A DNA stretch of 40,007 nucleotides from IMG/VR virus record IMGVR_UViG_3300031565_000126, positions 1 through 40,007 of that record. One strand, given 5' to 3'. Made by a program: the position numbers and the translations under genes. This document shows positions 867-38,813 of the stretch, piece by piece. The notes under the pieces were generated by a model that was given only the letters and a program-made list of their open reading frames with translations, searched no databases and had not been told where the DNA came from. Source of the stretch: a virus. Every line of letters starts with the position of its first letter. Within the stretch, counting starts at the first letter, position 1.

Positions 867-971
867 CTAGAGCCATCCCTTGTGCATACTGATTATGATA
901 GCTAGGAAGACGTAGAGCAGTAGAGTGTTGACCCAAGCCAGCATCTTCCAAAACAGAAGGTCATTCTTCAT
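867..971 (-). CDS. 34-aa single-helix membrane micro-protein between terL and portal
   Basis: ATG at 969-971 overlaps the terL stop as TGATG and has a strong GGAGGAAGAG site inside the terL end, so it is translationally coupled. The product has a charged start (MKND), one hydrophobic helix of about 22 residues (LLFWKMLAWVNTLLLYVFLA and following) and a basic HKGW tail. It is a probable inner-membrane peptide of unknown function. Two other one-helix peptides occur nearby in this operon (2570-2656 and 38576-38680). Confidence 0.65.
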   Translation of the reverse strand: MKNDLLFWKMLAWVNTLLLYVFLAIIISMHKGWL

Positions 972-2566
972 CACTCTTCCTCCTTCATTCCCAGCCAGCG
1001 CCTCAGCCTCCAGATCCCGTACCGCTTGCTATCGCACCCGTGGCTGAAGGCGTGATTCGCGGGGTCGGGGTCGGGCCTCGGGTCGAATGAGCCATCGGCC
1101 AACTGCCGCGCCCTGTAGCGTGACACGGCGTCTATGCTCTTAACACAGCGTGGGTGAATGAAGTATCGCCGCTCACCGTCTGCCGAACAGAACGCAGCCC
1201 TAAGCACGTCCTGTCCTTCCTCGACGTTGTGCTTCACTCGTTTGGCCGACGCTGCCCCGACGCCGTGTTCCTTGAGTTCAGCGCGGAACTGGACGGCGCT
1301 AGGATCGCCTATGGCTTCAGGCCAGACCTCCGGCCACGGCGAGGGCCATTCCTGCCTCTTCCATATCTCCGTCCACGCAGGGGGCTTCACCCAGCCAGGC
1401 GGCTTGATTTCTGGTTCCTCTTCTGACTCGAATGACGGGCCATCATAGCCTGGCAGTTGCGTAATGCGCCGCACAGCTTCCCGAACCCACTCACGCTCAG
1501 GACGATTTGAGCCGTTGAGTTCGTCGAACTGGTAGAATGCGCCGTCCCGGTACTGCACGAGGTCAATGTGGGTGGGATCGGTGTAGCCCCAGTCGTAGAA
1601 GAGGAACAGTGGCCCGGCACCTTCGACATACTCTGCCTCCTCGGTCACGTTGGCGCTGGAGAATGGCGCGTAGATAAGTGCCTTGGCTTCAGGCTTGCGG
1701 CAGAGGAATTGAGCCTCCCAAGTGTCCTGCCCCGCCCTCTTGTAGTGGGACATGATGTCCAGATGCGACCGCCAACCCGTCGCCTGTCGGCTGCGGCCCT
1801 GTGTCCACTCGTAGAGCTGGCAGCCGTTGGTCTCACATTCCTCAGTACAAGGCCGCATGGTCTCGAAGACGCAGTATTCGTAGACCTTGGTTCCCTTCTC
1901 TGCCGCCTCGTCCAGCGCTCGCTGCATCAGCCCCATGCTCGTCACGCGGGTTGACGCTGCTAGGAATTGCCCCAGCCGCATGACGCCGTTGTCGTCCCAC
2001 TCAGAGGGCATGGCCTTAGCGTTCTCGTAGGGCTGGAACTTGCCGCTCTCCAGCTCGTCATACGCCACCAAATGAGGATGCCCACCCTGCGTCTGACGCT
2101 CGGTGCCGGGCAGAATCTCAATCCAAGAGCCGTTAGTCCACACCGTAGAACGGATGTGGGGATCAGGAGCCAGGCTCACCAAGTCAGGGTGCCGTAGCCC
2201 TTGACGATAGTAGGCGTAGCAACGATGTCCCTGAATGTCGATGGCCCCAATATGCGAGGTCTCAAAGCGCGGCTTCCAGCGCCCATTCGCTAGGTGGAGG
2301 GACGACAGATTCTCCGTCTTGCCCCCACCTCGATTTGCCAGAACAAGGGCATCCGTCTCCTTGTGGAAGAAGAAGTCCCGCACGAAGTCGAAGGGGGCGC
2401 AGTGGTCGGGGCATACGGAGGTCGCAGGGATGTTGTGGCCTGTCACCTTGACCAGCCAAGCATGGAGGGCTTCAGGCGTCTCAGGGCGCGTCTCTGTGTC
2501 CTGGCATCGGTGCTTCAGGCTGACAGCCGCAAGGGGTAGGGCTTCAAGGATGGAGGCGCGGTTCAT
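971..2566 (-). CDS. terL: Terminase large subunit (ATPase-nuclease)
   Basis: 531 aa, ATG start with a GGGGG site upstream. The DNA-packaging motor cuts concatemers and translocates DNA into the prohead. ATPase domain: Walker A LANRGGGKT (76-84), Walker B HLVAYDELE (165-173), coupling motif AASTR (~203-207). RNase H-fold nuclease domain: acidic residues in YDWGYTDP (D325), IGDPS (D421) and the terminal NHAFSHGCDSKRYGIW (D512). Between them is a Pro/Trp/Glu-rich segment (~378-418) that looks like an insertion, and a Cys cluster C232/C240/C244/C249 that could bind metal. It lies downstream of terS and two small genes, and is coupled to the next micro-gene. Confidence 0.95.
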   Translation of the reverse strand: MNRASILEALPLAAVSLKHRCQDTETRPETPEALHAWLVKVTGHNIPATSVCPDHCAPFDFVRDFFFHKETDALVLANRGGGKTENLSSLHLANGRWKPRFETSHIGAIDIQGHRCYAYYRQGLRHPDLVSLAPDPHIRSTVWTNGSWIEILPGTERQTQGGHPHLVAYDELESGKFQPYENAKAMPSEWDDNGVMRLGQFLAASTRVTSMGLMQRALDEAAEKGTKVYEYCVFETMRPCTEECETNGCQLYEWTQGRSRQATGWRSHLDIMSHYKRAGQDTWEAQFLCRKPEAKALIYAPFSSANVTEEAEYVEGAGPLFLFYDWGYTDPTHIDLVQYRDGAFYQFDELNGSNRPEREWVREAVRRITQLPGYDGPSFESEEEPEIKPPGWVKPPAWTEIWKRQEWPSPWPEVWPEAIGDPSAVQFRAELKEHGVGAASAKRVKHNVEEGQDVLRAAFCSADGERRYFIHPRCVKSIDAVSRYRARQLADGSFDPRPDPDPANHAFSHGCDSKRYGIWRLRRWLGMKEEE

Positions 2567-3466: not shown

Positions 3467-3628
3467 TTACCCCTTGTTCAGAACCCTCTCCGTCATCCAG
3501 GCACCCTTGCGCTGGACGACCTTGTTGCTGTTGCCACATGCGGAACAACGGACGAACTTGGGGCCATCGTGAGCTGAGGTTACCCGTAGTGGCTCGGGGC
3601 AGTAGGCACAGACAAGAATGAGGTCCAT
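3467..3628 (-). CDS. 53-aa zinc-ribbon protein
   Basis: Start ATG 3628 overlaps the preceding stop as TAATG. It contains CAYC (7-10) and CSAC (28-31), a classical four-cysteine zinc ribbon, followed by a basic tail (NKVVQRKGAWMTERVLNKG). Probably binds nucleic acid or protein; precise function unknown. Second gene of the packaging operon. Confidence 0.7.
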   Translation of the reverse strand: MDLILVCAYCPEPLRVTSAHDGPKFVRCSACGNSNKVVQRKGAWMTERVLNKG

Positions 3629-3831
3629 TACACCGGAACCCCCAACTCCTCCAACTGGCGCTGTAGCTCAGCGATCTCGTCTCTCAGCGCCTGCCGCTTG
3701 TCGTACTTGACGGCTCCGCAGCTACAGGGCATCCCGTCATAGGGCCAGTCAGGGATTTCCCCCGCCCACGTCCAGACGTGCCCGCCGTAACAAGCGCTGG
3801 AGTCGGTGTAGTTGTCAGCCGCTGCGTCCAT
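3628..3831 (-). CDS. Small Cys-containing coiled-coil protein, first gene of the packaging operon
   Basis: The frame is open to 3846, but ATG 3831 is preferred because GGGGGC lies five bases upstream. 67 aa. Scattered C/H residues (C14, H18, then CSC at ~36-38) may bind metal. The C-terminus (ALRDEIAELQRQLEELG) is a clear short coiled coil. It is the first gene after promoter 3930-3957 and terminator 3841-3880, so its expression depends on read-through. No family recognised. Confidence 0.7.
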   Translation of the reverse strand: MDAAADNYTDSSACYGGHVWTWAGEIPDWPYDGMPCSCGAVKYDKRQALRDEIAELQRQLEELGVPV

Positions 3832-3840
3832 GTCGCCCCC

Positions 3841-3880
3841 AAACAAAAAGGGCCGCCGCCCTCTCAGGCTAGCGACCCTT
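3841..3880 (-). terminator. Intrinsic terminator in the leader of the packaging operon
   Basis: On the minus strand the stem AAGGGTCGC (3872-3880) pairs with GCGGCCCTT (3848-3856) through nine pairs (one G-U), with a 15-nt loop containing GAGAGG, followed by TTTTTGTTT. It lies about 43 nt after the predicted start of the 3930-3957 promoter and before the first gene (ATG 3831). It could end early-operon transcription, act as an attenuator or antitermination target for the packaging operon, or both. Confidence 0.75.
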
Positions 3881-3929
3881 CGGTTGCTCCGTTCGGATCG
3901 AGGTTATTTGGTTATGCGTCTACGCCTTT

Positions 3930-3957
3930 AGTCTAACAGGATTGGCGAGGATGTCAA
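3930..3957 (-). promoter_or_regulatory. Sigma-70-type promoter for the packaging operon
   Basis: Minus-strand TTGACA (3952-3957), 16-nt spacer, TAGACT (3930-3935). Predicted transcription start near 3923. It shares AACTTGACA and TAGACT with the promoter at 38551-38579, which suggests one late-promoter class. Confidence 0.65.
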
Positions 3958-5978: not shown

Positions 5979-6689
5979 TCAGTGGTTCACTTTTTCCCTG
6001 TGCTTCCCCGATAGAGGGCTGCGATCATCTTGGTTTCGTCTTCTTCTCCTTGCCCCCCCTTGGGGGGGCTTAAGGGGGGTACTTCTACTCTCCTCTTCTC
6101 TACTCTGATCTGATCTACTCTTCTCTAGACCGTCACGTGACCGTCTCACGACCTCTCTGTGAAGGTCACGTGCCCGTAACAGCTTTCCCCCATATTCCGA
6201 CCAATCGTGTATACGGAGACGGCCCCCGCGTCCGTGCTTCTCAAGGAAACCTGCGGATAACAGGGCGCTAACTAGCTTGTCGGGGTTACGCCTCCATGCA
6301 CAGGCCGTAGCAATAAGTCGTATGCTTCCTATACACTTCGTTGCACCGTCTGTAGCAATAACTCGTGTATTACCTTTAGGTTTGCCCGCAGAATTGGTAG
6401 ATATAACCCTGCTGTTGCTTTTACACTTTTTTGCAGCATCGGTACCACCAACTTTTGTGTCGCTGTTACACTTGCTTGCACGGTCGGTACCAGCAACTTG
6501 GGTGTTACTGGTACGTTTGTCCGCAGTTGCGTACTGTTTGATTATCCCGTCCGGCGCGTTGTCCAAGCACCATAACCAGAAAAAGACCAGATGCCCTGCT
6601 GCGGCGGCCTGGCTCACGCCTAGCTCAGAAGCTAGGACTAGGAGCTTGCGATGGTTCCGTAGCGATTGATCAACTGGAACCCAGGCCAC
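5979..6689 (-). CDS. Replisome-organizer-like replication initiation protein with internal repeat block
   Basis: 236 aa, GTG start. The N-terminus WVPVDQSLRNHRKLLVLASE through HLVFFWLWCLDNAPDGII (~3-50) and the LVSALLSAGFLE...LRIHDWSEYGGKLL segment (~140-170) match phage replisome organizer/DnaD-like N-terminal winged-helix domains that recruit host helicase to phage origins. Between them (~55-130) lie five degenerate 15-residue repeats of the type I-A-T-D-x-A-x-K-C-x-S-x-x-R-V, encoded by 45-bp tandem repeats (6307-6531). The C-terminus is Arg/Lys/Ser rich, likely disordered and DNA-binding. Lambda O also carries its origin iterons inside its gene; the same is proposed here (inference). Confidence 0.75.
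   Translation of the reverse strand: MAWVPVDQSLRNHRKLLVLASELGVSQAAAAGHLVFFWLWCLDNAPDGIIKQYATADKRTSNTQVAGTDRASKCNSDTKVGGTDAAKKCKSNSRVISTNSAGKPKGNTRVIATDGATKCIGSIRLIATACAWRRNPDKLVSALLSAGFLEKHGRGGRLRIHDWSEYGGKLLRARDLHREVVRRSRDGLEKSRSDQSREEESRSTPLKPPQGGARRRRRNQDDRSPLSGKHREKVNH
6053..6079. repeat. G/C-tract inverted repeat near the 3' end of the replication gene
   Basis: C7-TT followed by G7 and, after CTTAA, G6: CCCCCCTT (6054-6061) can pair with AAGGGGGG (6072-6079). The plus strand also carries two long G runs. Nearby, CACGTG occurs twice (6134-6139 within GTCACGTGAC, and 6167-6172). These could be structural elements linked to the origin region, or simple chance in the disordered C-terminal codons. 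Confidence 0.5.
6307..6531. repeat. Five 45-bp tandem repeats, candidate replication origin iterons
   Basis: Five units of exactly 45 bp (6307, 6352, 6397, 6442, 6487). Each begins GTAGCAATAA or GTACCA-CAA. Units 1, 3 and 4 share TACACTT-NN-TTGCA; units 2 and 5 share a variant GTTTG-CCGCA. The block is AT-richer than its surroundings and lies inside the replication initiator gene, the classical place for iterons in lambda-like phages. The frame is kept (15 codons per unit). Confidence 0.7.
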
Positions 6690-10086: not shown

Positions 10087-11133
10087 CTAAGAGATAACCT
10101 TCGCATCAACGGGCGCTAATTGCGGGTCTGATCCTGCCAGAAACTCATCGCAGGTATCGCGTAGGCGGAGCACGGCTCCGTAGGCTGCTTCCTGTCCCGC
10201 TGGCAAGGTCGCTGCATTCCCAACTTCGCGGATGGCGAAGATAGCGCCCTCAACAGCCTTCTCTAGCTTCTGCCCTGGGGCGACAGCATCATCAACCGCC
10301 TCGGAAAGCGTTGGGGCGATGTCGCGGAGAGCCTTCTCAATCTGGCCACGTGGGGTGTTAGCCTGGACGGTCTCAATGATCTCGGTGGCCTTGTCAGGCT
10401 GTTGCCTCAACGCTTTTCCCACAGCGCGAAGGCCAAAGCTATCGACGCGCCCGTGCTTCGATTCTGTTGCAACGCGATTGGCTAGAGCCTCGCGGAACTC
10501 ACGCGGTACTTCACGTACTTGATGCGCCACGCTGACGTTTACCTTGCCCTCTTTGACTGCCTTCCTCAGCACCTCCGGCACCCTAGTTGAGTCGAGCAGA
10601 TCGAGGTATTGGGCTATGGAAGCATCGCTGATGCCCAACCTAGTTGCCAATGGTGCGATCCCCCGATAACGGGTGGGGCCCTTTGAAGGCACATGCCCGC
10701 CCCACTTCCTTCCTAGTATCTTGGAAGGAAGATCAGCATCGCCCGGAAGTGGTCCGAGAAGTCCCTTGACCTCCATGTCGCAGAGACGCTGGAGGGCGTG
10801 GGCGGTATCCAGCGGGCTCATGCGAAAGAGGCCAACGCTGGTCTGGTGGACATTCTCAGACATTTGGCGTAGGAAGCGCAGTTCGGGTGTCTCCGGCGTG
10901 TAGCGCCTAGTGGGGACTTGGGCGAATCCTGCTTCCTTAGCGGCAAGCCAACGCATCTCGCCCGTCACGATGATGCCCTTATCGTCAACCTCAATAGGGT
11001 TAATCATCCCGACGCCCTTCTGCTTGAAGTTCTGGGCCAGCCCCGTGATTTGGTCTGGACTCTTCAGCTTGCGGGGCTGCTTGGGGTCGGGCCGTATATC
11101 GTCGATGGGTACTAGCTCAATCGTCTCTGTCAT
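10087..11133 (-). CDS. ParB-like DNA-binding protein
   Basis: 348 aa, ATG overlapping the preceding stop (ATGA). ParB N-terminal domain: VPIDDIRPDPKQPRK (~8-22), INPIEVDDKGIIVTGEMRWLAAKEAG (box II equivalent, ~44-69), MSENVHQTSVGLFRMSPLD (box III-like). Then an HTH (LATRLGISDASIAQYLDLL, ~163-181). The C-terminal ~150 residues are helical. Binds DNA and may act in partition or as a regulator; several phage ParB proteins use CTP or have nuclease activity. No ParA was found in the window, so classical partition is doubtful. Confidence 0.85.
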   Translation of the reverse strand: MTETIELVPIDDIRPDPKQPRKLKSPDQITGLAQNFKQKGVGMINPIEVDDKGIIVTGEMRWLAAKEAGFAQVPTRRYTPETPELRFLRQMSENVHQTSVGLFRMSPLDTAHALQRLCDMEVKGLLGPLPGDADLPSKILGRKWGGHVPSKGPTRYRGIAPLATRLGISDASIAQYLDLLDSTRVPEVLRKAVKEGKVNVSVAHQVREVPREFREALANRVATESKHGRVDSFGLRAVGKALRQQPDKATEIIETVQANTPRGQIEKALRDIAPTLSEAVDDAVAPGQKLEKAVEGAIFAIREVGNAATLPAGQEAAYGAVLRLRDTCDEFLAGSDPQLAPVDAKVIS

Positions 11134-11804
11134 TTGCCCTGCCCCAATTGGAGAGCCGCGTTCTTAAGGACGCGCTTCGCGGCTCCGGGATCAAGCGCCC
11201 CAAGGAGTGCTGTAGCAACGCTCGTCTGCTCGGCCAAAAGCTGCGTAAAGGTGGGCTTGCACGCTTCGGCTAGAGCCGCCTTTTCTTCAGGGGGGAGTCC
11301 AGCAGCAGCAGTCGTTACGCCGCGGGTCGCGCTTCTTGTATGCCCCCGGGCCATGCGGAGTTTGCGTTTCCCAACGGCGATTCTCTCCTCGAATGTGAGA
11401 AGTTTCTTGTACTTTCCGGGCAGGCATCCGCTGTCAGGGTTAGGAACAAAGCCGATAGGAGAGTCTGGGTAATACCTTTCTAGGTAGCAGAGGACGGGAG
11501 ACATTACATGGCGAGCCTCCGCATTAGTCCCAGCAAAGCCCCTGTTGATCACGTCTTGGACGGTCAGGACTTCTCCGCCAAGTAGTATCTCAGCGATAGC
11601 CCGAGTTCGCTCTCCATAAGGCCCATCGTCAGTCAATGACGGAGCCTGTTTTATTGGTCGGGACTGGCGTTGACCATTGTCTCTGACTATCTGGCTGATT
11701 CGCTGCCTAGTGAGAGCGTACCTCTCGGCAATAGCACTTAGGGACAAGCCTTCCGCTCGTAGGTGCCGAATCTCCTCATTACGTTCCAGATTCAGTTGCG
11801 CCAT
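11130..11804 (-). CDS. HTH regulator-like protein (sigma-70 region 4-like N-terminus)
   Basis: ATG 11804 with GGAGGAG six bases upstream; the longer frame is a shadow extension. 224 aa. Residues ~10-40 (RHLRAEGLSLSAIAERYALT, RQRISQIVRD) form an HTH like sigma-70 region 4 or response-regulator HTHs. The middle (ERTRAIAEILLGGEVLTVQD) and a basic stretch (IAVGKRKLRMARGHTRSATR) follow, then a helical C-terminus. It could be a transcription regulator or a ParB partner; it abuts parB. A candidate for late-gene activation, but nothing in the sequence proves it. Confidence 0.7.
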   Translation of the reverse strand: MAQLNLERNEEIRHLRAEGLSLSAIAERYALTRQRISQIVRDNGQRQSRPIKQAPSLTDDGPYGERTRAIAEILLGGEVLTVQDVINRGFAGTNAEARHVMSPVLCYLERYYPDSPIGFVPNPDSGCLPGKYKKLLTFEERIAVGKRKLRMARGHTRSATRGVTTAAAGLPPEEKAALAEACKPTFTQLLAEQTSVATALLGALDPGAAKRVLKNAALQLGQGK

Positions 11805-11817
11805 ACTGACTCCTCCT

Positions 11818-12705
11818 TCATCGTTCCTTCCCACAAGCACAGATGAAACGGTGCTTGTCGCCATACTTAGGGCACACGTCGACAGGCTTAGACTCCTCAC
11901 CTAGCCGGTGCTGTAGGGCTGCTACGGTAGGGGGTTCCCCGAACTCGGCCAGGTGCGCCACCGCCGCCTCCAAAGCCACCTTCCCGTCCTCTGGCTTCCT
12001 GCGCCCTATGTTCTGCATCAAGGCTCGTGAGTCGGTGAGTGGCCCTATGTTCTCCAGATTTGGGCCAGACGTGTCGCATATTCCCCAGATGTTTGCGTAA
12101 GCCCCTAGCGTCCGGCGCGACGGGGCACCATCAAAGAGCTCATACGCCTGCTCAGCCCAAGACTCACCCCATTGCTGGACATGGCGTTCGCGGTAGGTAT
12201 GGATGACGTGGCACTTTAGCAGGAAGGCATCGGCTTGGTGTTTGTCAGCTTGGGCAAAGACGGTTGCCAGTTCTTCGTCTGACAGTTTTTCCAAGGGTGC
12301 CAAGACGGGCGCGGCGCGGGAATACACCACCGCCTCTTCCTGGACGGCGGGGAGGGTTCCTGGCACCTCGGCCTCGTCAGCAGGGGATTGCTCATCTGGT
12401 GCCGCCTCGATGATGCGCTCAAACACCGTGCGATTGTTCTGGTCCCAGACGCGGTAGAGCCTGCCTACCCCATGGATATCCAGCACGGCGTTGCCCCAGT
12501 GGTGCTCGTCGATTCTCTGATGGCAGGCTGGGCAGATGAAAACGATGTCGCCCTTTGTGCCGCCTTGAGAGCGCTTCACAACATGATGATGATGGCCCTC
12601 TAAGCCGTGACCACACCACGGCACATGCCACTCGTGGGCGTCGCCCTTGAAGCTCTTGAGGCGTGTAGGACATCCCTTGACGGTACACAGGGGGATGTGG
12701 GTCAC
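11818..12705 (-). CDS. HNH-domain protein with long C-terminal extension
   Basis: GTG 12705 overlaps the previous stop (GTGA). 295 aa. N-terminus: CTVKGC zinc pair, GLEGHHHHVVKRSQGGTKGD then CPACHQRIDEHHWG, the H-N/G-H and CxxC pattern of HNH nucleases (~35-70). Residues ~125-260 are helical and unrelated to known HNH enzymes (WGESWAEQAYELFDGAP, TLGAYANIWGICDTSG); the C-terminus carries CPKYGDKHRFICAC, a second zinc-like cluster. Possibly a DNA-modifying or replication nuclease rather than a homing enzyme, given its place inside the operon. Confidence 0.75.
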   Translation of the reverse strand: MTHIPLCTVKGCPTRLKSFKGDAHEWHVPWCGHGLEGHHHHVVKRSQGGTKGDIVFICPACHQRIDEHHWGNAVLDIHGVGRLYRVWDQNNRTVFERIIEAAPDEQSPADEAEVPGTLPAVQEEAVVYSRAAPVLAPLEKLSDEELATVFAQADKHQADAFLLKCHVIHTYRERHVQQWGESWAEQAYELFDGAPSRRTLGAYANIWGICDTSGPNLENIGPLTDSRALMQNIGRRKPEDGKVALEAAVAHLAEFGEPPTVAALQHRLGEESKPVDVCPKYGDKHRFICACGKER

Positions 12706-15813: not shown

Positions 15814-16668
15814 ATGTTCGGGTGGAGATCCTTGAGAATTGAAGAGGCGGCTGAGCAGTTTGCCATTCACCTTCAGCTCGAAGGCCGCCCCAAGACTACC
15901 AGGGATAACTACGGCTACGTGGTACGCCGTCTAGCCCGGCGCTTCCCGCACATGCCCGTTAGCAAACTCAAGGGCTCCGAACTCCACGAATACATAGCGG
16001 AACTAGGCGAATCTGTCTCGCACAACGCATTGACCTGCTACACCTTGGAGTTGAGGGTGTTCTTTAGGTGGCTTGTTGAAAACGGCTACATGAAGGAGAA
16101 CCCCCTGGATCGGTTTCGCACCCACCGGGAGCCGCTACCACCCGTGACGCCGTTTACCAAGGAAGAGGCGGCCCGCCTCATGGAAGCTATCCAAACCCCG
16201 TTTGAGCGGGCAGTTCTCATGCTGCTAATGGATTGTGGGCTGCGGGCCTCGGAGCTCTGCAATTTGAAGCTAGAGGACATTGATTTGAGGGCGGGGGAGC
16301 TAATCGTTCGGAAGGGCAAAGGCGGAAAGTCTCGCCGACTGGCCTTGAACGCCAGGCCAAGAAGGGCGTTGGTGGAGTATCTACGGGGCCGTGGGCAACT
16401 GGACGGCCTCCTATGGCCCGCTCAGTGGCAGAGGAAGCAACTCTCATGGGCACTCGACAAGCTCGCCCGTCGCGCCAAGGTCTACCGCGTCTACCCCCAT
16501 AGGTTCCGTCATAGCTGGGCGATTGAACTGAGAAGGGAAGGCGTGGACATCCTCGTCATCCAGCAACTCCTCGGCCATTCCAGTATCCAGATGACGTTGC
16601 GCTACGTTGCCTTCTGCGAGCAGGAAATTGCCGTCGAGGTCCACCGGCAGCACCCCATTGCCTCATAA
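15814..16668 (+). CDS. int: Tyrosine recombinase / phage integrase (XerD-like)
   Basis: 284 aa. N-terminal SAM-like core-binding domain (FAIHLQLEGRPKTTRDNYGY, ~16-35). Catalytic domain with R144 (DCGLRASEL), K169/K172 (GKGGKSR), H229-x-x-R232 (YPHRFRHSWA), H255 (LLGHSS) and nucleophile Y264 (TLRYVAF); all residues are present. Catalyses integration between attP and a host attB. Compact like XerC/D, without a DNA-binding arm domain. ATG 15814 lacks a ribosome site; TTG 15832 has GGAGA upstream. Transcribed away from the early operon and convergent with endolysin. No excisionase recognised. Confidence 0.93.
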   Translation: MFGWRSLRIEEAAEQFAIHLQLEGRPKTTRDNYGYVVRRLARRFPHMPVSKLKGSELHEYIAELGESVSHNALTCYTLELRVFFRWLVENGYMKENPLDRFRTHREPLPPVTPFTKEEAARLMEAIQTPFERAVLMLLMDCGLRASELCNLKLEDIDLRAGELIVRKGKGGKSRRLALNARPRRALVEYLRGRGQLDGLLWPAQWQRKQLSWALDKLARRAKVYRVYPHRFRHSWAIELRREGVDILVIQQLLGHSSIQMTLRYVAFCEQEIAVEVHRQHPIAS

Positions 16669-16681: not shown

Positions 16682-17431
16682 CTAGCCCGGTCTTCCCATC
16701 CATGTGCATCGTTTCCGCGCCTCTTCGATGGCCTTGATCTCGGCGAGGTAAGCCCTTGACAGGCATCCCCATTGGCGCTCCTCTTCCTCTGGGGACTCGC
16801 CCTCGTTATGGCGGATGGCGCTGATCATCCTCATTTGGGTTGCCAGTGTTACCCCGTGGGCGACATCGGCCAGGTTCATCAGGCGCATCTCGGTTGCCCG
16901 CAATTGCGCGAACTGATCCTCGAGCACTTCTTTCTCCTTCAAGTCTGCTATCAGCCTCGCCCTCGGCCAGTTCGGGCCAGGGCAATTCGCCCTGCTCACG
17001 GAGTCGAACTGGAAATGACCCACGATTGCCAGCCCGGGTTCTTGTTCCAGTAGCCACCTCTTTAGCTTGAGGTCGGCCTGGTACATCGCCTCCGTCCACA
17101 AGTCATTAGGCCAACCCTCGTGTTCAATAGACCATGTAACAACGTTGGGGTTGTAGTTCTCGTAGATGTAGGCCAGCGCTGGATCGGGGTTGGCGATGGC
17201 ACCATTGGCCCAGGCGCAATCCTCTAGCTCAACATACTGGTGGGTGTCTCCATTCTTGCCGATCCCGAATGTGGCCGACAGCCCACCACCGTTGAACCAG
17301 GAGTCACACCCTACCAACGTGCCACACATGATGTGGTCACAGATGGCGAGGGGGATTAACTGGCCGTGAGTCCCCGCCGGGTAGCCGAAATGGTCAGGGG
17401 TGCCGACCCACTTGGCAAAGGGGCATCTCAC
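16682..17431 (-). CDS. Endolysin: N-acetylmuramoyl-L-alanine amidase (Amidase_2)
   Basis: 249 aa. Zinc ligands of the amidase_2/PGRP fold: H33 (ICDHIMCGT), H139 (IVGHFQFDS) and C150 (ANCPGPNWP); also SWFNGGGLSATFGIGKNG, CAWANG and SIEHEGWPND around the active site. Cleaves the amide between muramic acid and the stem peptide. Residues ~160-249 are a charged helical tail (LRATEMRLMNLADVAHGVTL) with no known wall-binding repeat. Last gene of the late operon, directly after the holin. Confidence 0.93.
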   Translation of the reverse strand: MRCPFAKWVGTPDHFGYPAGTHGQLIPLAICDHIMCGTLVGCDSWFNGGGLSATFGIGKNGDTHQYVELEDCAWANGAIANPDPALAYIYENYNPNVVTWSIEHEGWPNDLWTEAMYQADLKLKRWLLEQEPGLAIVGHFQFDSVSRANCPGPNWPRARLIADLKEKEVLEDQFAQLRATEMRLMNLADVAHGVTLATQMRMISAIRHNEGESPEEEERQWGCLSRAYLAEIKAIEEARKRCTWMGRPG

Positions 17432-21409: not shown

Positions 21410-23751
21410 GCTTGCTCCAGGTGGAAGATCGTCTCGTGGAAGATCCCTGGCTGGATGTGGTGCTCGATGCCCTCGATCCACATATCACCGTCGATGTCGG
21501 TGCTGAAGGCCATAGCCACGTTCTCGACGTGAATCTTGTCGCCGATCTCCCGCGCCAGCATCTGCGTCAGCACGGTATCGTTCTTGGGCCGGAGCACCAT
21601 CGAGCATCGCCAGATTCGCCCGTCGTAGAAGTCGGCCAAGCGGTCGGCCTCCGTCACCATGCTGGCCGTTCTGGTGCCTTGAAGAGGCAGGGCACATCTC
21701 AGGGTGCGCTCGACGGCCGGCGGCGAAGCGGAGGCGTCTACGACCTTCGACTCTTCCATGCTGCCGCGGAGGGGGTAGCCCGTGACCGACAGTTCTTCGA
21801 CTAAGGCAGGATCAGCGCCAGCGCCGATAGTGATCTTTGCACCGACGCCATAGTTCTCGAAGACCTCGGAGTCTGGCTGTGCGCCCTCTAGGGTAACGAT
21901 AAGTAGCGGGGGATCGCCTTGCTCTAATGCCGCAAAGTAAAGATGCTCATGGCCAGTCGGGGGAACAGCCTCGTTGTCGCTCATGAGTTCGAATTCCGTG
22001 TAGCCATCCAAGACAACACCCGCAATAGCGATGTCAATCTCGATCCACTCACCCACTGGCGGCAGATCTGCTGTGTCGGCGTAGGTGCCGCGCACTGTTC
22101 CTACGCCACTCCAGTCACCTACGGCGAGGGTATCCCCCCAAGCACAGTCCCGAACCTGGATAGCGAAGTCTGTGTCAGTATGGTTGCCAGTCAGCTTTAG
22201 GCGGAGCTTTGCTGCCGTGATTGTCGCATCATCAGCAATAGGTGCTGTGTTAAATCGGAGGTAGCCGCGATGGGAATAATAGATCGTGCCTACCAGCGCC
22301 TGCCCGATGCAAAGTCCTGTAAGAACGCGGTCATTCAGATCAGGTGGATGAGCCCCATCTTCGTATCGCTGTATAAAGCCGTCATCTGCTGCGATGGCGA
22401 TGGGATAGGAGGTAGGGGTGCCATCGGGATTCACGGATAGAGTGCAGTCCCTTGACGGCTGCGAGTAGAAGGCGTGGAACACCATCGTCTCCGTCGCGGG
22501 GATGATCACTGGCGTCGGCGACAGCTCCCAGATCGTCGCGCTCGTGTTCTCGTCCTCGAAGTCACCCTGAGATGTGAGCTCGCATTCCGAGATGCGGTCG
22601 ATGGCGTGTTCGGCGTAGAATAAGTCCTGATAGGGCACATCGGAGCCGTCGTCGCTGAAGGTGGCCGAGGATGCTACTGCACGGTGATCCAAGTCCCAGA
22701 AGCGGAAGTGCTCAAGGTAGTTGATGTGGTCACAATAAACAAAGAAGAAGGAACGCGGCTCGCTCTCGGCGATGGCCTGGATAATCTCAAGGGCGGGTTG
22801 GCGGTAGGACGCGGCAAGCTCGATCTCGGCGGTACCGTCATCGAAGTCACGGGTGATAAGTTCCCCAACGGTACTGGGAGTGACGAAATATAGCCCGTCG
22901 CTCCAGAACATGACCTCAGATGCGCCCTGGGTGATAAGGTCGAAGTAGTGGCTTTCACCGTTATTGAATGACTTTGCGGCAGCTATTATGGTCAACAGGG
23001 TCGGCGTCGTACCCACGCTGAAATCGAAATAGGTCTCAACGCCTTCAACACTATTGACAGCCTGGAACCTGAGCGTCACCGTCTCGCTGGCCTTCGCCCA
23101 AACCCCCGCGATAATGGCCTTGCCCACCGTCACATCCCCCGTGCAGTCGAAGCGCCAGCCCTCGCCCGCGTTGTCGCCCGGACAATCGCAGAATATGGTA
23201 TAATCGCCCTCAATCTTCATGGTGGCGTCCCGAACGGGGGTCACGCCCTGCTGCGCCGCGTAGCCTGTTATGTTCGCCTCCACGCTGGGGTTGTCGCACT
23301 CGTTGTCGCCGATGGCCCTGTTCACCGCCAAGTCCAGGGCACACTTCACGGGGATCTTCCGCAACAGGGGCAGGTTCAATGTCGAGTATTGCCACAGCGC
23401 GAACCTGTCCCCGAGAGTCCACGTGACGGTCTGCTGATTCATCTTGGGCTTGTTGTCCATAGTCAGAACAAAGCCATAGAACAAGCCGTAGGTGGAGGCA
23501 CCGACCACTGTCCCCTTGATGCGGACACGGCGATACATCTCCACGAGACCGGCGTAGGCACCGTCAGCCTTGTCGGGGCTGAACCGCCCGTCCCCATTCT
23601 TCAGGATGAGGGTTGCCGTGCCGGGGGACATACGGCTGAGGTCATCTCTGCGACCACGGTTGATCTTGATATCCATGACGTAGGCCGAGATGTCGGTCGC
23701 AAAGCCGCCGTCGCCCGCGCTATCCCATTGAACCTGGACGGACTCGCTCAT
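21406..23751 (-). CDS. Tail hub / tail-tip protein with embedded carbohydrate-binding-like domains (781 aa)
   Basis: Starts four bases inside the tape-measure stop. The N-terminus (VQVQWDSAGDGGFATDISAY, DIKINRGRRDDLSRMSPGTA, LILKNGDGRFSP) matches siphovirus distal-tail/hub proteins. Two probable insertions: ~175-275 a CBM4/9-like sandwich (CTGDVTVGKAIIAGVWAKAS, TVTLRFQAV), and ~480-610 a DNRLRE/TNF-like jelly roll (YLRFNTAPIADDATITAAKL, WIEIDIAIAGVVLDGYTEF). C-terminal ~130 residues resume a baseplate-type domain (GIEHHIQPGIFHETIFHLEQ). Likely recognises host surface polymer. Confidence 0.8.
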   Translation of the reverse strand: MSESVQVQWDSAGDGGFATDISAYVMDIKINRGRRDDLSRMSPGTATLILKNGDGRFSPDKADGAYAGLVEMYRRVRIKGTVVGASTYGLFYGFVLTMDNKPKMNQQTVTWTLGDRFALWQYSTLNLPLLRKIPVKCALDLAVNRAIGDNECDNPSVEANITGYAAQQGVTPVRDATMKIEGDYTIFCDCPGDNAGEGWRFDCTGDVTVGKAIIAGVWAKASETVTLRFQAVNSVEGVETYFDFSVGTTPTLLTIIAAAKSFNNGESHYFDLITQGASEVMFWSDGLYFVTPSTVGELITRDFDDGTAEIELAASYRQPALEIIQAIAESEPRSFFFVYCDHINYLEHFRFWDLDHRAVASSATFSDDGSDVPYQDLFYAEHAIDRISECELTSQGDFEDENTSATIWELSPTPVIIPATETMVFHAFYSQPSRDCTLSVNPDGTPTSYPIAIAADDGFIQRYEDGAHPPDLNDRVLTGLCIGQALVGTIYYSHRGYLRFNTAPIADDATITAAKLRLKLTGNHTDTDFAIQVRDCAWGDTLAVGDWSGVGTVRGTYADTADLPPVGEWIEIDIAIAGVVLDGYTEFELMSDNEAVPPTGHEHLYFAALEQGDPPLLIVTLEGAQPDSEVFENYGVGAKITIGAGADPALVEELSVTGYPLRGSMEESKVVDASASPPAVERTLRCALPLQGTRTASMVTEADRLADFYDGRIWRCSMVLRPKNDTVLTQMLAREIGDKIHVENVAMAFSTDIDGDMWIEGIEHHIQPGIFHETIFHLEQA

Positions 23752-26456
23752 CCGAATCTCCGGCGCAGGACGGGCTCAAGCCGTTCGGCGATCTCCTCAA
23801 GCTGGCGCTGGTCGCCAAGTAGGGGGCCGCTGAACTCGATGTGGATGGGGCTGACACTACCGCCAGAACCGCCAGCAGCGGCACCCACAGGGGCGTAGGA
23901 GGAAGTTGCCGCAGGAAGGGACAGGGAAGCCACACTCGGCGTAGTCAGGGATTCTAAGCCCTGCTGCCAGCCATGACTCAAGTCCTGGGCCATCGCCTTG
24001 CCCCAATGCCATGTCAAATACTGAGGAGAAGCGTGGAGAGCGTCGTAGAGTTCTTTGATTAGAGCAAGGATCGCTACAATACCACTTGTCTTCTTAGCAG
24101 CAATGCCATTTACAAAGCCCGTCACCAAGTCCTCCGCCATCTCGATGCCCCAGTGCCAGGTCTTGTATTGGGGGGAGCCGTGTAGGGCTTTCTTCATCTC
24201 CTCCGTCATGTAGTTGATGGCCCCGACCGCCTCCTGCGTCTTCGGGCCGAACAGCGTCAGCGAGAAGGCGTCAATCATGGCCTCGGCGAAGGCGACCATC
24301 TCCAGTCCTACCGTCTCCCGCTCGTTCTCGATGGCATCGACGACATCGCCCGTGTAGTCCTCGACCACCGTGATATGCTCGCCCAGCAGCCGATAGGTTT
24401 CCAGGCCCATCGTTCCCTCGCGGAGCATATTGATGGCTGCCTGAGCTGCCAGGGGACCGCCCTCTTCAACCGTTCGCACGATGTCGCCGACGTTCTCTAC
24501 CTGGGCGGTTGCCAGTACGGTATAAAGCTCCCTAAGATTGCCCTCGAAGGCGACCTGGGCAGCGAACAGCGTGGTCAGGCGTTCCTCCCAGGCGTCGAAT
24601 TCCTCATCTATAGTGGGCAACAGACCCTTGATGGTTCCCTTGATGGCGGCGAATGACTCTTCGTTTGCCGCTGCCAGATCCTGCGTCGCCGCAATCATCT
24701 TGGGCGTGTCGTCCTCATATCGCCGCAGTAGTTTCCCAATCTCGCCGCCCACACCCTGTTCGCCTAGAGCCTCCTTCGCTGCTCGTTCCATTGGACGCAG
24801 GGCATCCTCTATAGTCGTATTCTTCCAGTCGATGCCAGCCCGCTCCAGGGCATCGTAGATTTGCTCTAGGTCAGCTCCCTGGGCCTGCATCTCCTTAACC
24901 GTATCAGTGACAATATCCAGGTAGCTCTCCCAAGCAACCTCGTTAAGTCTGCCCCACGGCCCGACCTTCTTACCCTGCTCATTGTATTCGTCAGTCAATG
25001 TCTTCAGGGATTTCCCGAGGGCTTTGAGAGTCCTAAAGGCCAATTGGTCAACCGTAAGTAACTGGCGGCGATAGAGGTCATTCGCATCTGCCAGTGCCTC
25101 ATTTAGCTCCCGCTGGTAGCGAGCATTGGCCCTGACCAGGCCGCCCAGAACTGGCATCTTGTCGATCGCGTCACGGTTCTTGTCGATGAACTTACCGAGG
25201 GCAAAAGCGCCAATAGCAAGAGCAGCGACGATCCCAGCCGGCCCAAGAAGTGCAAGGTTCATTGACCGAAGAGCCGTAACCAGCGTCCCTATTTGCGAAA
25301 CGAGACTGACAATTTTCCAAGTAGCCCAAGCCGCTACGAGGGCAACTATCGCACCAGCAAGCGGAACAATAATTGGCCTGATCTTCTCTAGGCCCGCAAC
25401 GAGCAGGGGCAATACCTTTACCCCCACTGTAATCATCTCGACTTTCATTTCGTTGATCGCCTTGTTCAGTTTGTAACTGGTTGTCTCAGACACCGTTTCA
25501 AAGGCTTGATCCAGGCCGCCAGTGGCCTCTTCCGCCTCGGCTATGGCGTCCTTGAAGGCTGCCGCCTGTTCTCCGCTGAGACCGAGGATGGCCATTAGAG
25601 CTTCAGTGGAACCAACCAACTTCCGCATCTGTTCCATGTTGCCGCCGGTTGCCGTATTGAGTTCGTCAAAGGCCCCCACTAGACCTATCGACTCTAGGCG
25701 TGATGCAGAGAAGTCAAGGCCAAGCTCCTCCATGAGTTTCGATTGCGCTTCTGTCGGAGCAGCGAGAGCCTGAATAGCGGCCCGGAGCTGTGTCGTCGCC
25801 TGAGCCGTAGGAACACCTTGAGCAGTCAGGCTAGCGAGCGCGGCGGTCACTTCCTCAAAGGAAATGCCTGCGGCTGAAGCCATCGGCACGACGTTGTAGA
25901 GACTAGCCGACAGCTCCTCGAAGGTCGTCTTGCCCAGCCGGACGCCAGTGAACATGACGTCAGCGGCCTTTGCCGCGCTGATGTTCTCGACACCATAAGC
26001 GTTGATGACTGACGTGATTCCATCGACCGCTGTCTCCAAGTCAGTGACGCCGCCGATGGCGGCTTTGGAAGCGACGGTCATAAACTCCATGACGTTCTCT
26101 TTGGGGACGCCAGCGGAGATCGCCTGGTAGAGCGCGGGCACGGCCTGGTCGGTAGCGATACCCATCTCCTTCGAGAAGTCGAGAACGTCATCCTTCATCT
26201 TGCCGAAAGCCTTCTCGGAGATGTCTGGCATGAGCGTCTTGACCTCGGCCATCGTCTTCTCAAAGTCCATGCCCATCTTGAGGGCTGCCACGCCTGCGCC
26301 AGCGAGAGCAGCGCCGCCAGCCACTGCGCCAGCCTTCAGCGCAGTCCCGAGCATGTTGCTCAGGCCCTTCGCTTTGCCCTGAACGTGGTCCATTGTGCCC
26401 GAAGCCTCGTCCCGGGCTTTAATCAGGATGGCGATTTCGTTTCCGCTCAACGCCAT
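23748..26456 (-). CDS. Tail tape measure protein (902 aa)
   Basis: N-terminal helical coil, then the TP901-type core (MDFEKTMAEVKTLMPDISEK, VPALYQAISAGVPKEN, LSASLYNVVPMASAAGISFE, LRAAIQALAAPTEAQSKLME; ~60-260). Membrane-like segments at ~355-420 (VLPLLVAGLEKIRPIIVPLA, VALVAAWATW, IVAALAIGAFALGKF). Near the C-terminus the motif LH-SPQY-TWHWG-MA-DL occurs twice. It sets tail length; at ~1.5 Å per residue (known rule) about 135 nm. Preceded by chaperones and the moron insertion. Confidence 0.95.
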   Translation of the reverse strand: MALSGNEIAILIKARDEASGTMDHVQGKAKGLSNMLGTALKAGAVAGGAALAGAGVAALKMGMDFEKTMAEVKTLMPDISEKAFGKMKDDVLDFSKEMGIATDQAVPALYQAISAGVPKENVMEFMTVASKAAIGGVTDLETAVDGITSVINAYGVENISAAKAADVMFTGVRLGKTTFEELSASLYNVVPMASAAGISFEEVTAALASLTAQGVPTAQATTQLRAAIQALAAPTEAQSKLMEELGLDFSASRLESIGLVGAFDELNTATGGNMEQMRKLVGSTEALMAILGLSGEQAAAFKDAIAEAEEATGGLDQAFETVSETTSYKLNKAINEMKVEMITVGVKVLPLLVAGLEKIRPIIVPLAGAIVALVAAWATWKIVSLVSQIGTLVTALRSMNLALLGPAGIVAALAIGAFALGKFIDKNRDAIDKMPVLGGLVRANARYQRELNEALADANDLYRRQLLTVDQLAFRTLKALGKSLKTLTDEYNEQGKKVGPWGRLNEVAWESYLDIVTDTVKEMQAQGADLEQIYDALERAGIDWKNTTIEDALRPMERAAKEALGEQGVGGEIGKLLRRYEDDTPKMIAATQDLAAANEESFAAIKGTIKGLLPTIDEEFDAWEERLTTLFAAQVAFEGNLRELYTVLATAQVENVGDIVRTVEEGGPLAAQAAINMLREGTMGLETYRLLGEHITVVEDYTGDVVDAIENERETVGLEMVAFAEAMIDAFSLTLFGPKTQEAVGAINYMTEEMKKALHGSPQYKTWHWGIEMAEDLVTGFVNGIAAKKTSGIVAILALIKELYDALHASPQYLTWHWGKAMAQDLSHGWQQGLESLTTPSVASLSLPAATSSYAPVGAAAGGSGGSVSPIHIEFSGPLLGDQRQLEEIAERLEPVLRRRFG

Positions 26457-36192: not shown

Positions 36193-37692
36193 TCACGCTA
36201 CAGAGATATTGTAGATTCCGCTCGCCACGTTCGCGCCGAACCGAGTGAAGGCCCGCCGCGTGTAGAGCTCGATCAAGAACTGGTCGGTCTTCTGGATACG
36301 GTCCATGAAGAACTGCGTGTCCCGGCGCACTCCGCCAAGCCAGCCAGCAGGGTTGAACAAGGTGATCTGGCCCTTGACGTTGGTGGTCTCGGTGTCTACG
36401 CACTTGCCGTCAGAGTCGGTCTTGGTGGCGTAGGGCGGGCAGATGATCGGGATGCCGTAGATGCTGCCAAGCTCGCCGGTTACGATAGTGGCCTGGGGGC
36501 CGTACTTGTCGACGGTCTTGAAGACATCCAGTTCAAGCATGTTCATGTAGGTGTCCCAGTCGCAGACCAGTCGGAGATCACGAGCCCGCAGCCCCCAGTT
36601 GGTGTTCTTGATGAGGCTGTCAACGTCGTCATCGCAGCCGTTCAGCTTGCCGCGAGCGCGGACGATCTCCGCGGGGTCAAGCTCGCCGGCCTGGTTCTTG
36701 CCCTGGCCAGCGGTGGTCACGAGCCAGTAGTGCCGGATGCCATCCCAGGCTAGGTAGTGCTTGGTGTCGCCTGGGTCAGCGTCGTCCAGGTTGATGTTGG
36801 CCGTGCCAGCGTTGGTGGTGTCACCATTGAGGTAACACGAGCCAAGATAGAGTGCCGCCGACTCCGCTAGCTTCTTCCGAAGGAATGGCGTGTAGGCGAC
36901 CAGGCTATCCTCGCTCAACTCGCCCGACCATATCTGCTGAATGGTGAACTTCTTGGCCGTGAGCGTCGCCTTGCTCGAAGGTGTCTTGCTCGTGGTGTAG
37001 GCCGTCGCGTTGTAGACCAAGGACTCAGCGACGAACAGCATCTCGGGCGGAGCGCCGTCGATGGGAATGTAGCTCACGGGGGCAGTCATGGGCACCGTGG
37101 GGATGCTGGCTATGATGCCATCGTTGTTCTTGGCCGATTCCCACATGCTAGTCGCGTACTGAGCGCCGATAAGGTCAGCGCCGTAGCCAGACTCGCCGGT
37201 GTCCATTGCCCGAACAGGCTGGCCCTTGTCGTTGGAGAGGTGGATGCGCTCGCCTCCGCCCTCGAAGACTGCGGCCTGGTAGCACTGAGTAAAGCGCTCA
37301 GAAGGCTCGATGTTCACAGGGGCACCTCTTACTTTGCCGGCACCGTCCATGATCATTCGGGCAACCTCGAAGTTGGCCCGCCGCTCCTCTGCCTTCTCCT
37401 CTTGGCTGGGCCTGCTACCATCGGGCCGCACATCGGGGCCGGAGAAGCCCATGCGGTCGAACTCGTCCTTGGTGTGGTAGCCAGGCTGAATCGTTACCTT
37501 GCTCGGGGTCGTAAGCTCCCCAGCAGCGGCCTTGATCGCGTCACCGACGCGCCGCTCAAGGTCTTCCTCGCGCTGCTCGTCCCGCTCCTCCATCTTGGTT
37601 ATGGAGTCAGTCAGCCGCTCAATGGCGACAGCAATCGCGTCTTCCTGGTCGTCACCCTCCTGGTCATCGACCTTTGTGTCCTCATCGCTCAT
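36193..37692 (-). CDS. Major capsid protein, HK97 fold (499 aa)
   Basis: ATG overlaps the protease stop (TAATG). Residues ~15-60 are an acidic coiled coil (AIERLTDSITKMEERDEQRE), the delta/scaffold region usually removed by the protease. The HK97 shell domain follows: DTGESGYGADLIGAQYATSM, IPTVPMTAPVSYIPIDG, KKFTIQQIWSGELSEDS, LRLVCDWDTYMNMLELDVF, FFMDRIQKTDQFLIELYTRR. Forms the icosahedral shell. Followed by the HNH insertion and decoration genes. Confidence 0.92.
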   Translation of the reverse strand: MSDEDTKVDDQEGDDQEDAIAVAIERLTDSITKMEERDEQREEDLERRVGDAIKAAAGELTTPSKVTIQPGYHTKDEFDRMGFSGPDVRPDGSRPSQEEKAEERRANFEVARMIMDGAGKVRGAPVNIEPSERFTQCYQAAVFEGGGERIHLSNDKGQPVRAMDTGESGYGADLIGAQYATSMWESAKNNDGIIASIPTVPMTAPVSYIPIDGAPPEMLFVAESLVYNATAYTTSKTPSSKATLTAKKFTIQQIWSGELSEDSLVAYTPFLRKKLAESAALYLGSCYLNGDTTNAGTANINLDDADPGDTKHYLAWDGIRHYWLVTTAGQGKNQAGELDPAEIVRARGKLNGCDDDVDSLIKNTNWGLRARDLRLVCDWDTYMNMLELDVFKTVDKYGPQATIVTGELGSIYGIPIICPPYATKTDSDGKCVDTETTNVKGQITLFNPAGWLGGVRRDTQFFMDRIQKTDQFLIELYTRRAFTRFGANVASGIYNISVA

Positions 37693-38474: not shown

Positions 38475-38503
38475 AAGCCCCGACTCCTCTCTGAAGTCGG
38501 GGC
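38473..38503 (-). terminator. Intrinsic terminator in the leader of the capsid operon
   Basis: Minus strand GCCCCGACT (38495-38503) pairs perfectly with AGTCGGGGC (38477-38485), with a nine-base loop containing GAGAGG, followed by TTTT (38473-38476). It lies ~41 nt after the predicted start of the 38551-38579 promoter and overlaps the beginning of the protease frame. A 19-codon GTG leader frame (38455-38514, GGAG upstream) runs across it. Confidence 0.72.
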
Positions 38504-38550
38504 ACACGGGCCACGATTGACTCCGGGCACAAAGGCCACTGCTGATTAAA

Positions 38551-38579
38551 AGTCTATACGGTTAATTCAATGTTGTCAA
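38551..38579 (-). promoter_or_regulatory. Sigma-70-type promoter for the capsid/tail operon
   Basis: TTGACA (38574-38579), 17-nt spacer, TAGACT (38551-38556) on the minus strand; start near 38544. It overlaps the stop of the micro-gene 38576-38680. Shares TTGACAACATTG with the early promoter and AACTTGACA/TAGACT with the packaging promoter. Confidence 0.7.
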
Positions 38580-38684: not shown

Positions 38685-38813
38685 CTACCCTCCCTGATTC
38701 GTAGCCCCACAACGAGGGCACACTATCCTGAACGGCACCGATACCTTCTCCGCCAGCAGTTTAGCACATCGCCAGCAGCGCAGGCTTACGATGGGTTTAG
38801 CTACGACGGCCAT
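38685..38813 (-). CDS. Com-like zinc-finger protein (42 aa)
   Basis: ATG 38813 with GGGGGC upstream, overlapping the MuF end by 17 bases. LRCWRCAKLLAEKVSVPFRI then VCPRCGATNQ matches the Mu Com family pattern (C-x2-C-x-KLL...I-CPRCG-xN). Mu Com is an RNA-binding translational activator of mom; Com-like genes often follow MuF genes. No mom-like gene is seen here, so its target is open. Confidence 0.72.
   Translation of the reverse strand: MAVVAKPIVSLRCWRCAKLLAEKVSVPFRIVCPRCGATNQGG

Follow-up and report, generated by a model that had tools for sequence, protein, structure and literature searches.

What governs two phage operons, one for packaging and one for the capsid, that each begin with a predicted promoter followed almost at once by a terminator-like hairpin? 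We addressed this question in IMGVR_UViG_3300031565_000126, the record of an uncultured virus with a siphophage-like gene set, all 40,007 bases of which make up the window analysed here (Table 1). The portal gene seems to be divided between the ends of the record (window 866-1 and 40005-38797, both on the minus strand), so that the genome is likely to be circular or permuted and the record almost complete. No close relative was found among annotated phages, and a megablast of the head region against them gave zero matches. Relatives were collected from IMG/VR and from bacterial genomes through the capsid protein and the protease.

Table 1. Position and support of the features discussed in the text (window coordinates).
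Feature	Position	Strand	Support
Terminase	971-2566		siphophage-like gene set
First gene after site A, ATG at 3831, free GGGGG Shine-Dalgarno	3628..3831	-	sequence
Terminator-like hairpin of site A with its T5 tract	3845..3881	-	-23.1 kcal/mol; strict Com box scan empty
Predicted promoter A, TTGACA-16-TAGACT	3930..3957	-	10/12 matches, TG before second hexamer
Integrase	15814-16668		siphophage-like gene set
Tape measure	23748-26456		siphophage-like gene set
Major capsid protein, following the protease in the operon	36193..37692	-	PHROG 267, 5.4e-5
Capsid maturation protease, probable TTG start 38474, 260 codons	37692..38474	-	PHROG 80, 1.3e-20
Terminator-like 11-bp hairpin of site B, followed by U4; loop and 3' arm contain the protease Shine-Dalgarno	38477..38503	-	-21.0 kcal/mol
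Com box 2, GGC[CCGUGU]GCC	38501..38512	-	strict scan and covariation
Com box 1, GGC[CUUUGU]GCC	38526..38537	-	strict scan and covariation
Predicted promoter B, TTGACA-17-TAGACT	38551..38579	-	10/12 matches
Com-like gene, 42 aa zinc ribbon (MAVVAKPIVSLRCWRCAKLL..CPRCGATNQGG)	38685..38813	-	PF10122, PHROG 6417

Two parallel units without a common leader motif

A sequence-only reading of the window had described a promoter, leader and hairpin before the packaging operon (3957-3841, minus strand; site A) and the same arrangement ahead of the capsid genes (38579-38477, minus strand; site B). From this duplicate geometry, with a leader motif said to be shared, it had proposed that both hairpins are conditional terminators read through with the help of a phage factor, as in N/Q systems in principle. 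Both predicted promoters and both hairpins were recovered. At site A the hairpin spans 3881-3848 and runs into the T5 tract at about 3850-3845, and the leader folds with z = -2.26; at site B the leader fold reaches z = -2.36 and the hairpin, followed by T4, is the only uninterrupted stem of at least 9 bp with a T-rich tail on the minus strand of the window (block shuffles yield 0 to 2 such stems, mean 0.3). The shared motif, CGGAG-CAA-CCG / CGGAGTCAATCG, had to be given up as a chance resemblance: segment pairs drawn at random from the window attain its best local score of 9 in 57% of cases (P = 0.57), and the CGGAG-CAA element is not kept in relatives. The general idea of a conditional hairpin served by a phage factor does fit, and the unit is kept in several relatives. 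For its N/Q-type side we found no feature: Rfam gave no match at the two sites and nothing else of relevance, and no recognisable nut, qut or put element came to light.

Lambda Q and HK022 put share with this phage a promoter-proximal terminator before late genes; neither a Q-like protein nor an RNA or DNA element related to theirs was identified in the window, where a weak helix-turn-helix match named late transcriptional activator lies at 11130-11900. The BglG/SacY (RAT) systems resemble site B in principle, in that the RNA hairpin to which the protein binds includes part of a terminator's 5' arm, but their protein family, RNA sequence and host context are all different. A BglG/SacY-like antiterminator was our first reading of the box and terminator overlap at site B, and it was dropped on account of the com-like gene upstream and the SELEX motif described below.

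A Com-type hairpin is conserved before the capsid protease

The element that is conserved is another one, absent from the sequence-only reading and found at site B only: a Com-type RNA mini-hairpin, GGC[C NNN G(A/U)]GCC, present in one or two copies about 25 nt apart, the last of which runs into the hairpin covering the ribosome-binding site of the protease. The two boxes of the window start 63 and 38 nt before the protease TTG, and the last three bases of box 2 are the base of the adjoining hairpin, whose stem ends 2 nt before that start codon. Homology with relatives begins at the protease N-terminus read from this TTG, and the GAGAGG in the hairpin loop is probably the protease Shine-Dalgarno. 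Several relatives follow the same plan of promoter, one or two boxes and a hairpin whose end lies on the start codon or shortly before it, with promoter-like sites at the place of promoter B in L005, L006, L007, L012, L034 and L102.

With boxes defined strictly (at least 3 bp of stem, a closing C-G and a loop of C N2-3 G A/U), the window, L005, L006 and L007 each gave two, and L011, L012, L019, L022 and L127 at least one; dinucleotide shuffles gave 0.03-0.23 per 140 nt. Strict boxes also occur about once per kb per strand across the window; not being rare genome-wide, a single copy is weak evidence, and what carries the argument is that the box is doubled, keeps its place and is conserved. A tighter pattern, AG[TA]GGCCNNNG[TA]G[CT]CCCG, was matched with zero mismatches in L005, L006 and L019-L023, and only before the protease. 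When box and GCGGGGC stem were used together as a DNA pattern across IMG/VR, most matches were unrelated and the clear ones fell within the known group only.

All 14 distinct aligned boxes can form a hairpin with a 5-6 nt loop that starts with C and is closed by C-G. Their stems are 100% paired, with a covariation score of 0.421 that none of 500 shuffles reached (mean 0.152, sd 0.051). The signal, part of which comes from Mu and TJ1, sits in the outer pair, which occurs as GC, AU, GU, CG and UA; in L007 both copies show AGC..GCU pairing. The more distant phage L127 carries its strict box at 2868-2878, with a terminator-like hairpin, before the protease.

A com-like gene lies upstream of the boxes

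Directly upstream of promoter B the window encodes a 42-aa protein whose four-cysteine zinc ribbon, CxxC..CPxC (C-W-R-C ... C-P-R-C), aligns with that of Mu Com. It matches PF10122 (Mu-like prophage protein Com) with 27.9 bits, or 25.7 in the genome scan, above the cut-off of 22.9, and PHROG 6417 (translational regulator) at 9.8e-7. Com-like proteins were found in all other box-bearing lineages except L127, where no com gene was found within the 7.6-kb fragment. Matches to PF10122 or PHROG 6417 were obtained in L007, L011/L012 and L102 and, more weakly, in L005, L022, L027 and L034; the Com matches of L005, L006, L034 and L022 stay below the Pfam cut-off, and the training set of our in-house com profile included some of the sequences it scored. 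The gene is not always adjacent to the box: in the L019/L022 group it lies 1.3-2.1 kb upstream.

Box and gene tend to occur together. Among 62 protease clusters (75% identity), a strict box was found in 5 of the 9 with com and in 4 of the 53 without (Fisher P = 0.002). The clusters with com and no strict box are L102, L027/L028, L034 and L016, whose variant boxes were recognised only after the fact. Com-like proteins were also seen among the head-tail connector and tail genes of the Arthrobacter phages Kovu and Ottawa (L180, L181), with no strict box near them.

Likeness to known com systems

The box form was derived before it was compared with the Com motif, and it is the same. SELEX and SHAPE show Com binding to CC(N)2-3GAG in hairpin loops that an invariable C-G pair closes, and RNA carrying two motifs binds better (Nowacka et al. 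2019, PMC6483171). The natural site in Mu, GAAUGCCUGCGAGCAUCCC, adjoins the translation inhibition structure (TIS), a hairpin with the start codon of mom in it, and Mu Com, the characterised homolog, activates mom translation (PMC6483171). Our strict scan of the Mu com-mom stretch returned exactly this natural site. Studied Com proteins contact the GA of the loop; GA is present in L005, L019, L027 and one L006 box, whereas both window boxes have GU, so that they represent a variant Com-type site and not an identical one.

The likeness to Mu com-mom thus extends to a Com homolog of the same Pfam family, a com gene upstream of the target, a short hairpin whose loop C NNN G(A/U) is closed by C-G, and a box abutting a second hairpin over the Shine-Dalgarno or start codon of the next gene, a feature present at site B and in most relatives. 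The differences are that the target is the capsid protease and not a DNA-modification enzyme, that a promoter of their own separates the boxes from com, and that the window has two boxes, GU for GA and a U-tract past the hairpin.

In ten other com phages (Mana, KS5, Carl1, Bise, PAN70, B3, Phipami28, JD024, Smp131 and Mcat3) the gene next after com, mom-like or a DNA methylase where annotated and otherwise unnamed, has one or two strict boxes, mostly two, 29-57 nt ahead of it. Chuche and TJ1 have no strict box in this interval, TJ1 having one further up. Among Burkholderia, Pseudomonas and Stenotrophomonas phages (L183, L187-L194) we observed com, then one or two strict boxes 20-25 nt apart, then a DNA-methylase or mom-like gene. 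Such com-DNA methylase or com-mom-like cassettes, those of Burkholderia KS5, Carl1 and Mana, Pseudomonas B3, JD024 and PAN70, and Stenotrophomonas Smp131, resemble the window in their one or two boxes and in a distance to the gene close to its 63 and 38 nt, and differ from it in the gene targeted. In the literature found we saw neither a description of the second box of com-methylase phages nor an experiment on the boxes of these cassettes, and found no open-access report of Com acting outside DNA-modification genes.

Probable translational activation and its alternatives

Judged from its sequence, site B is likely to be a Com-operated leader that serves the capsid protease operon rather than a DNA-modification gene. 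The small zinc-ribbon Com made from the upstream gene would bind the 5' end of the mRNA of the capsid operon, at one or two mini-hairpins of the form xGC[C NNN G(A/U)]GCx, and help to break the adjoining hairpin from its base. Once open, the hairpin would expose the Shine-Dalgarno GAGAGGAG and the TTG start and so allow the protease to be translated, in the way that Mu Com works on mom, and perhaps, by coupling, the major capsid protein as well. Computation gives the Com homolog, the boxes with their covariation and position, and the like gene order and spacing of known com phages; we infer Com binding, hairpin melting and the level of control, and activation rather than repression by analogy with Mu.

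The anatomy points to control of the ribosome-binding site first, and of the possible modes we hold translational activation to be the likeliest. The Shine-Dalgarno or start codon lies inside the hairpin in nearly all relatives, and the U-tract is lost in L012, L019/L022, L034 and L027/L028, which keep the hairpin and a box or box-like sequence; translation therefore appears to be the conserved function ahead of termination. L027/L028 point the same way: they have kept com along with a box-like sequence and a hairpin over the Shine-Dalgarno, and inspection showed no consensus promoter there. Melting would have to go beyond the box itself: when box 2 was forced in silico the hairpin lost only its three basal pairs, and the 8-bp stem that stays leaves the Shine-Dalgarno covered, so that Com would have to melt the rest. 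In L007 and L012, by inspection, the whole box is inside the stem.

Because the window hairpin ends in U4, Com binding could also relieve termination. Taken as the whole explanation, antitermination would make both hairpins intrinsic terminators some 40-80 nt past a promoter, which RNA polymerase passes with the aid of a protein of the phage, Com at site B and a different one at site A. The strength of the two stems, the U4 and U5 that follow and the promoters just upstream agree with this, as do the U-rich tracts of L006, L007, L102, L127 and both units of the colinear G001 contig, and the position of box 2, which takes three basal pairs beside the U-tract. The relatives that keep hairpin and box or box-like sequence after losing the U-tract, the leader of L027/L028 with no consensus promoter seen before it, and the known action of Mu Com on translation speak against it, and we consider antitermination possible but rather doubtful. 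Repression, in which Com would prevent the leader from opening before the late phase of infection or exert feedback control, draws on the stability of the Shine-Dalgarno hairpin even with box 2 formed; with an activator as its characterised homolog (PMC6483171), such a role seems improbable.

Two further explanations do without Com-bound RNA at this leader. The boxes of site B can be read in DNA as direct repeats, GTGGCC..GTGCCC, about 25 bp apart at the predicted transcription start, where they could serve a repressor or activator with no RNA involved. However, the compensatory AGC..GCU pairing in both L007 copies, the UA and CG pairs in Mu and TJ1, the match to the Com RNA motif and the similar boxes inside known com-target transcripts speak against this, and a DNA operator is very unlikely. 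Alternatively, chance might have placed a promoter and an upstream terminator together at each site, the box being a GC-rich by-product: generic promoters in the first half of the window are at chance level (5 found, 6.7 expected), so that the weight rests on position and conservation, and strict boxes have the genome-wide frequency given above. Conservation at a specific position in several lineages, double copies, covariation and co-occurrence with com make coincidence hardly credible, the least probable of these accounts.

A proposed Com switch for capsid genes

Com has been known as a special regulator of DNA-modification genes. In this phage group construction of the shell appears to have come under a regulator known from such genes, through a variant Com switch that targets the capsid. 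If this is true, it would, together with the double box seen in com phages of several groups, make Com a portable RNA switch for phage genes; its box consensus offers a simple means to predict and test Com targets, and the small zinc-ribbon genes beside head genes in uncultured phages gain a likely function.

The packaging side

The strict scan found no Com box in the site A leader, and the likely Shine-Dalgarno (GGGGG) and ATG of the first gene lie outside the hairpin. Site A is best described as a predicted promoter and a terminator close behind it, parallel to site B in layout and boxless; an attenuator at these coordinates is a plausible prediction. Two relatives were checked for the site. 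The sequence of the close relative L017 begins within the terminase region. G001, the L102 contig, has no consensus promoter directly before the terminase, and carries a second unit of promoter, leader, hairpin and U-tract 4.5 kb upstream of it. Its two units speak for such parallel units occurring as pairs in this group of phages, though not for an element common to both.

A wider scheme would make Com a general control of phage late genes: one zinc-ribbon protein, acting through one or two hairpins recognised by their loops, would antiterminate the capsid operon and activate its translation, shell assembly waiting for it, with the packaging operon under a sister zinc-ribbon protein at site A. 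We regard this scheme as speculative and, as a whole, unlikely.

Some minor observations complete the description of these regions. The second unit of the G001 contig (L184/L185) is at position 17212 of the contig's reverse complement, with a zinc-ribbon reading frame (RCPNCRRLYSV) upstream and one strict Com box, CAUC[CGAUGA]GGUG, in its leader. In the window, a small zinc-ribbon reading frame (MDLILVCAYCPEP..) at about 3633-3472 on the minus strand weakly matches the Lar-like restriction alleviation protein (PHROG 6422, E = 7e-4). A C6/G6 hairpin, CCCCCCTTGGGGGGGCTTAAGGGGGG, lies at 6054-6079 on the plus strand, within the replication-initiation reading frame.
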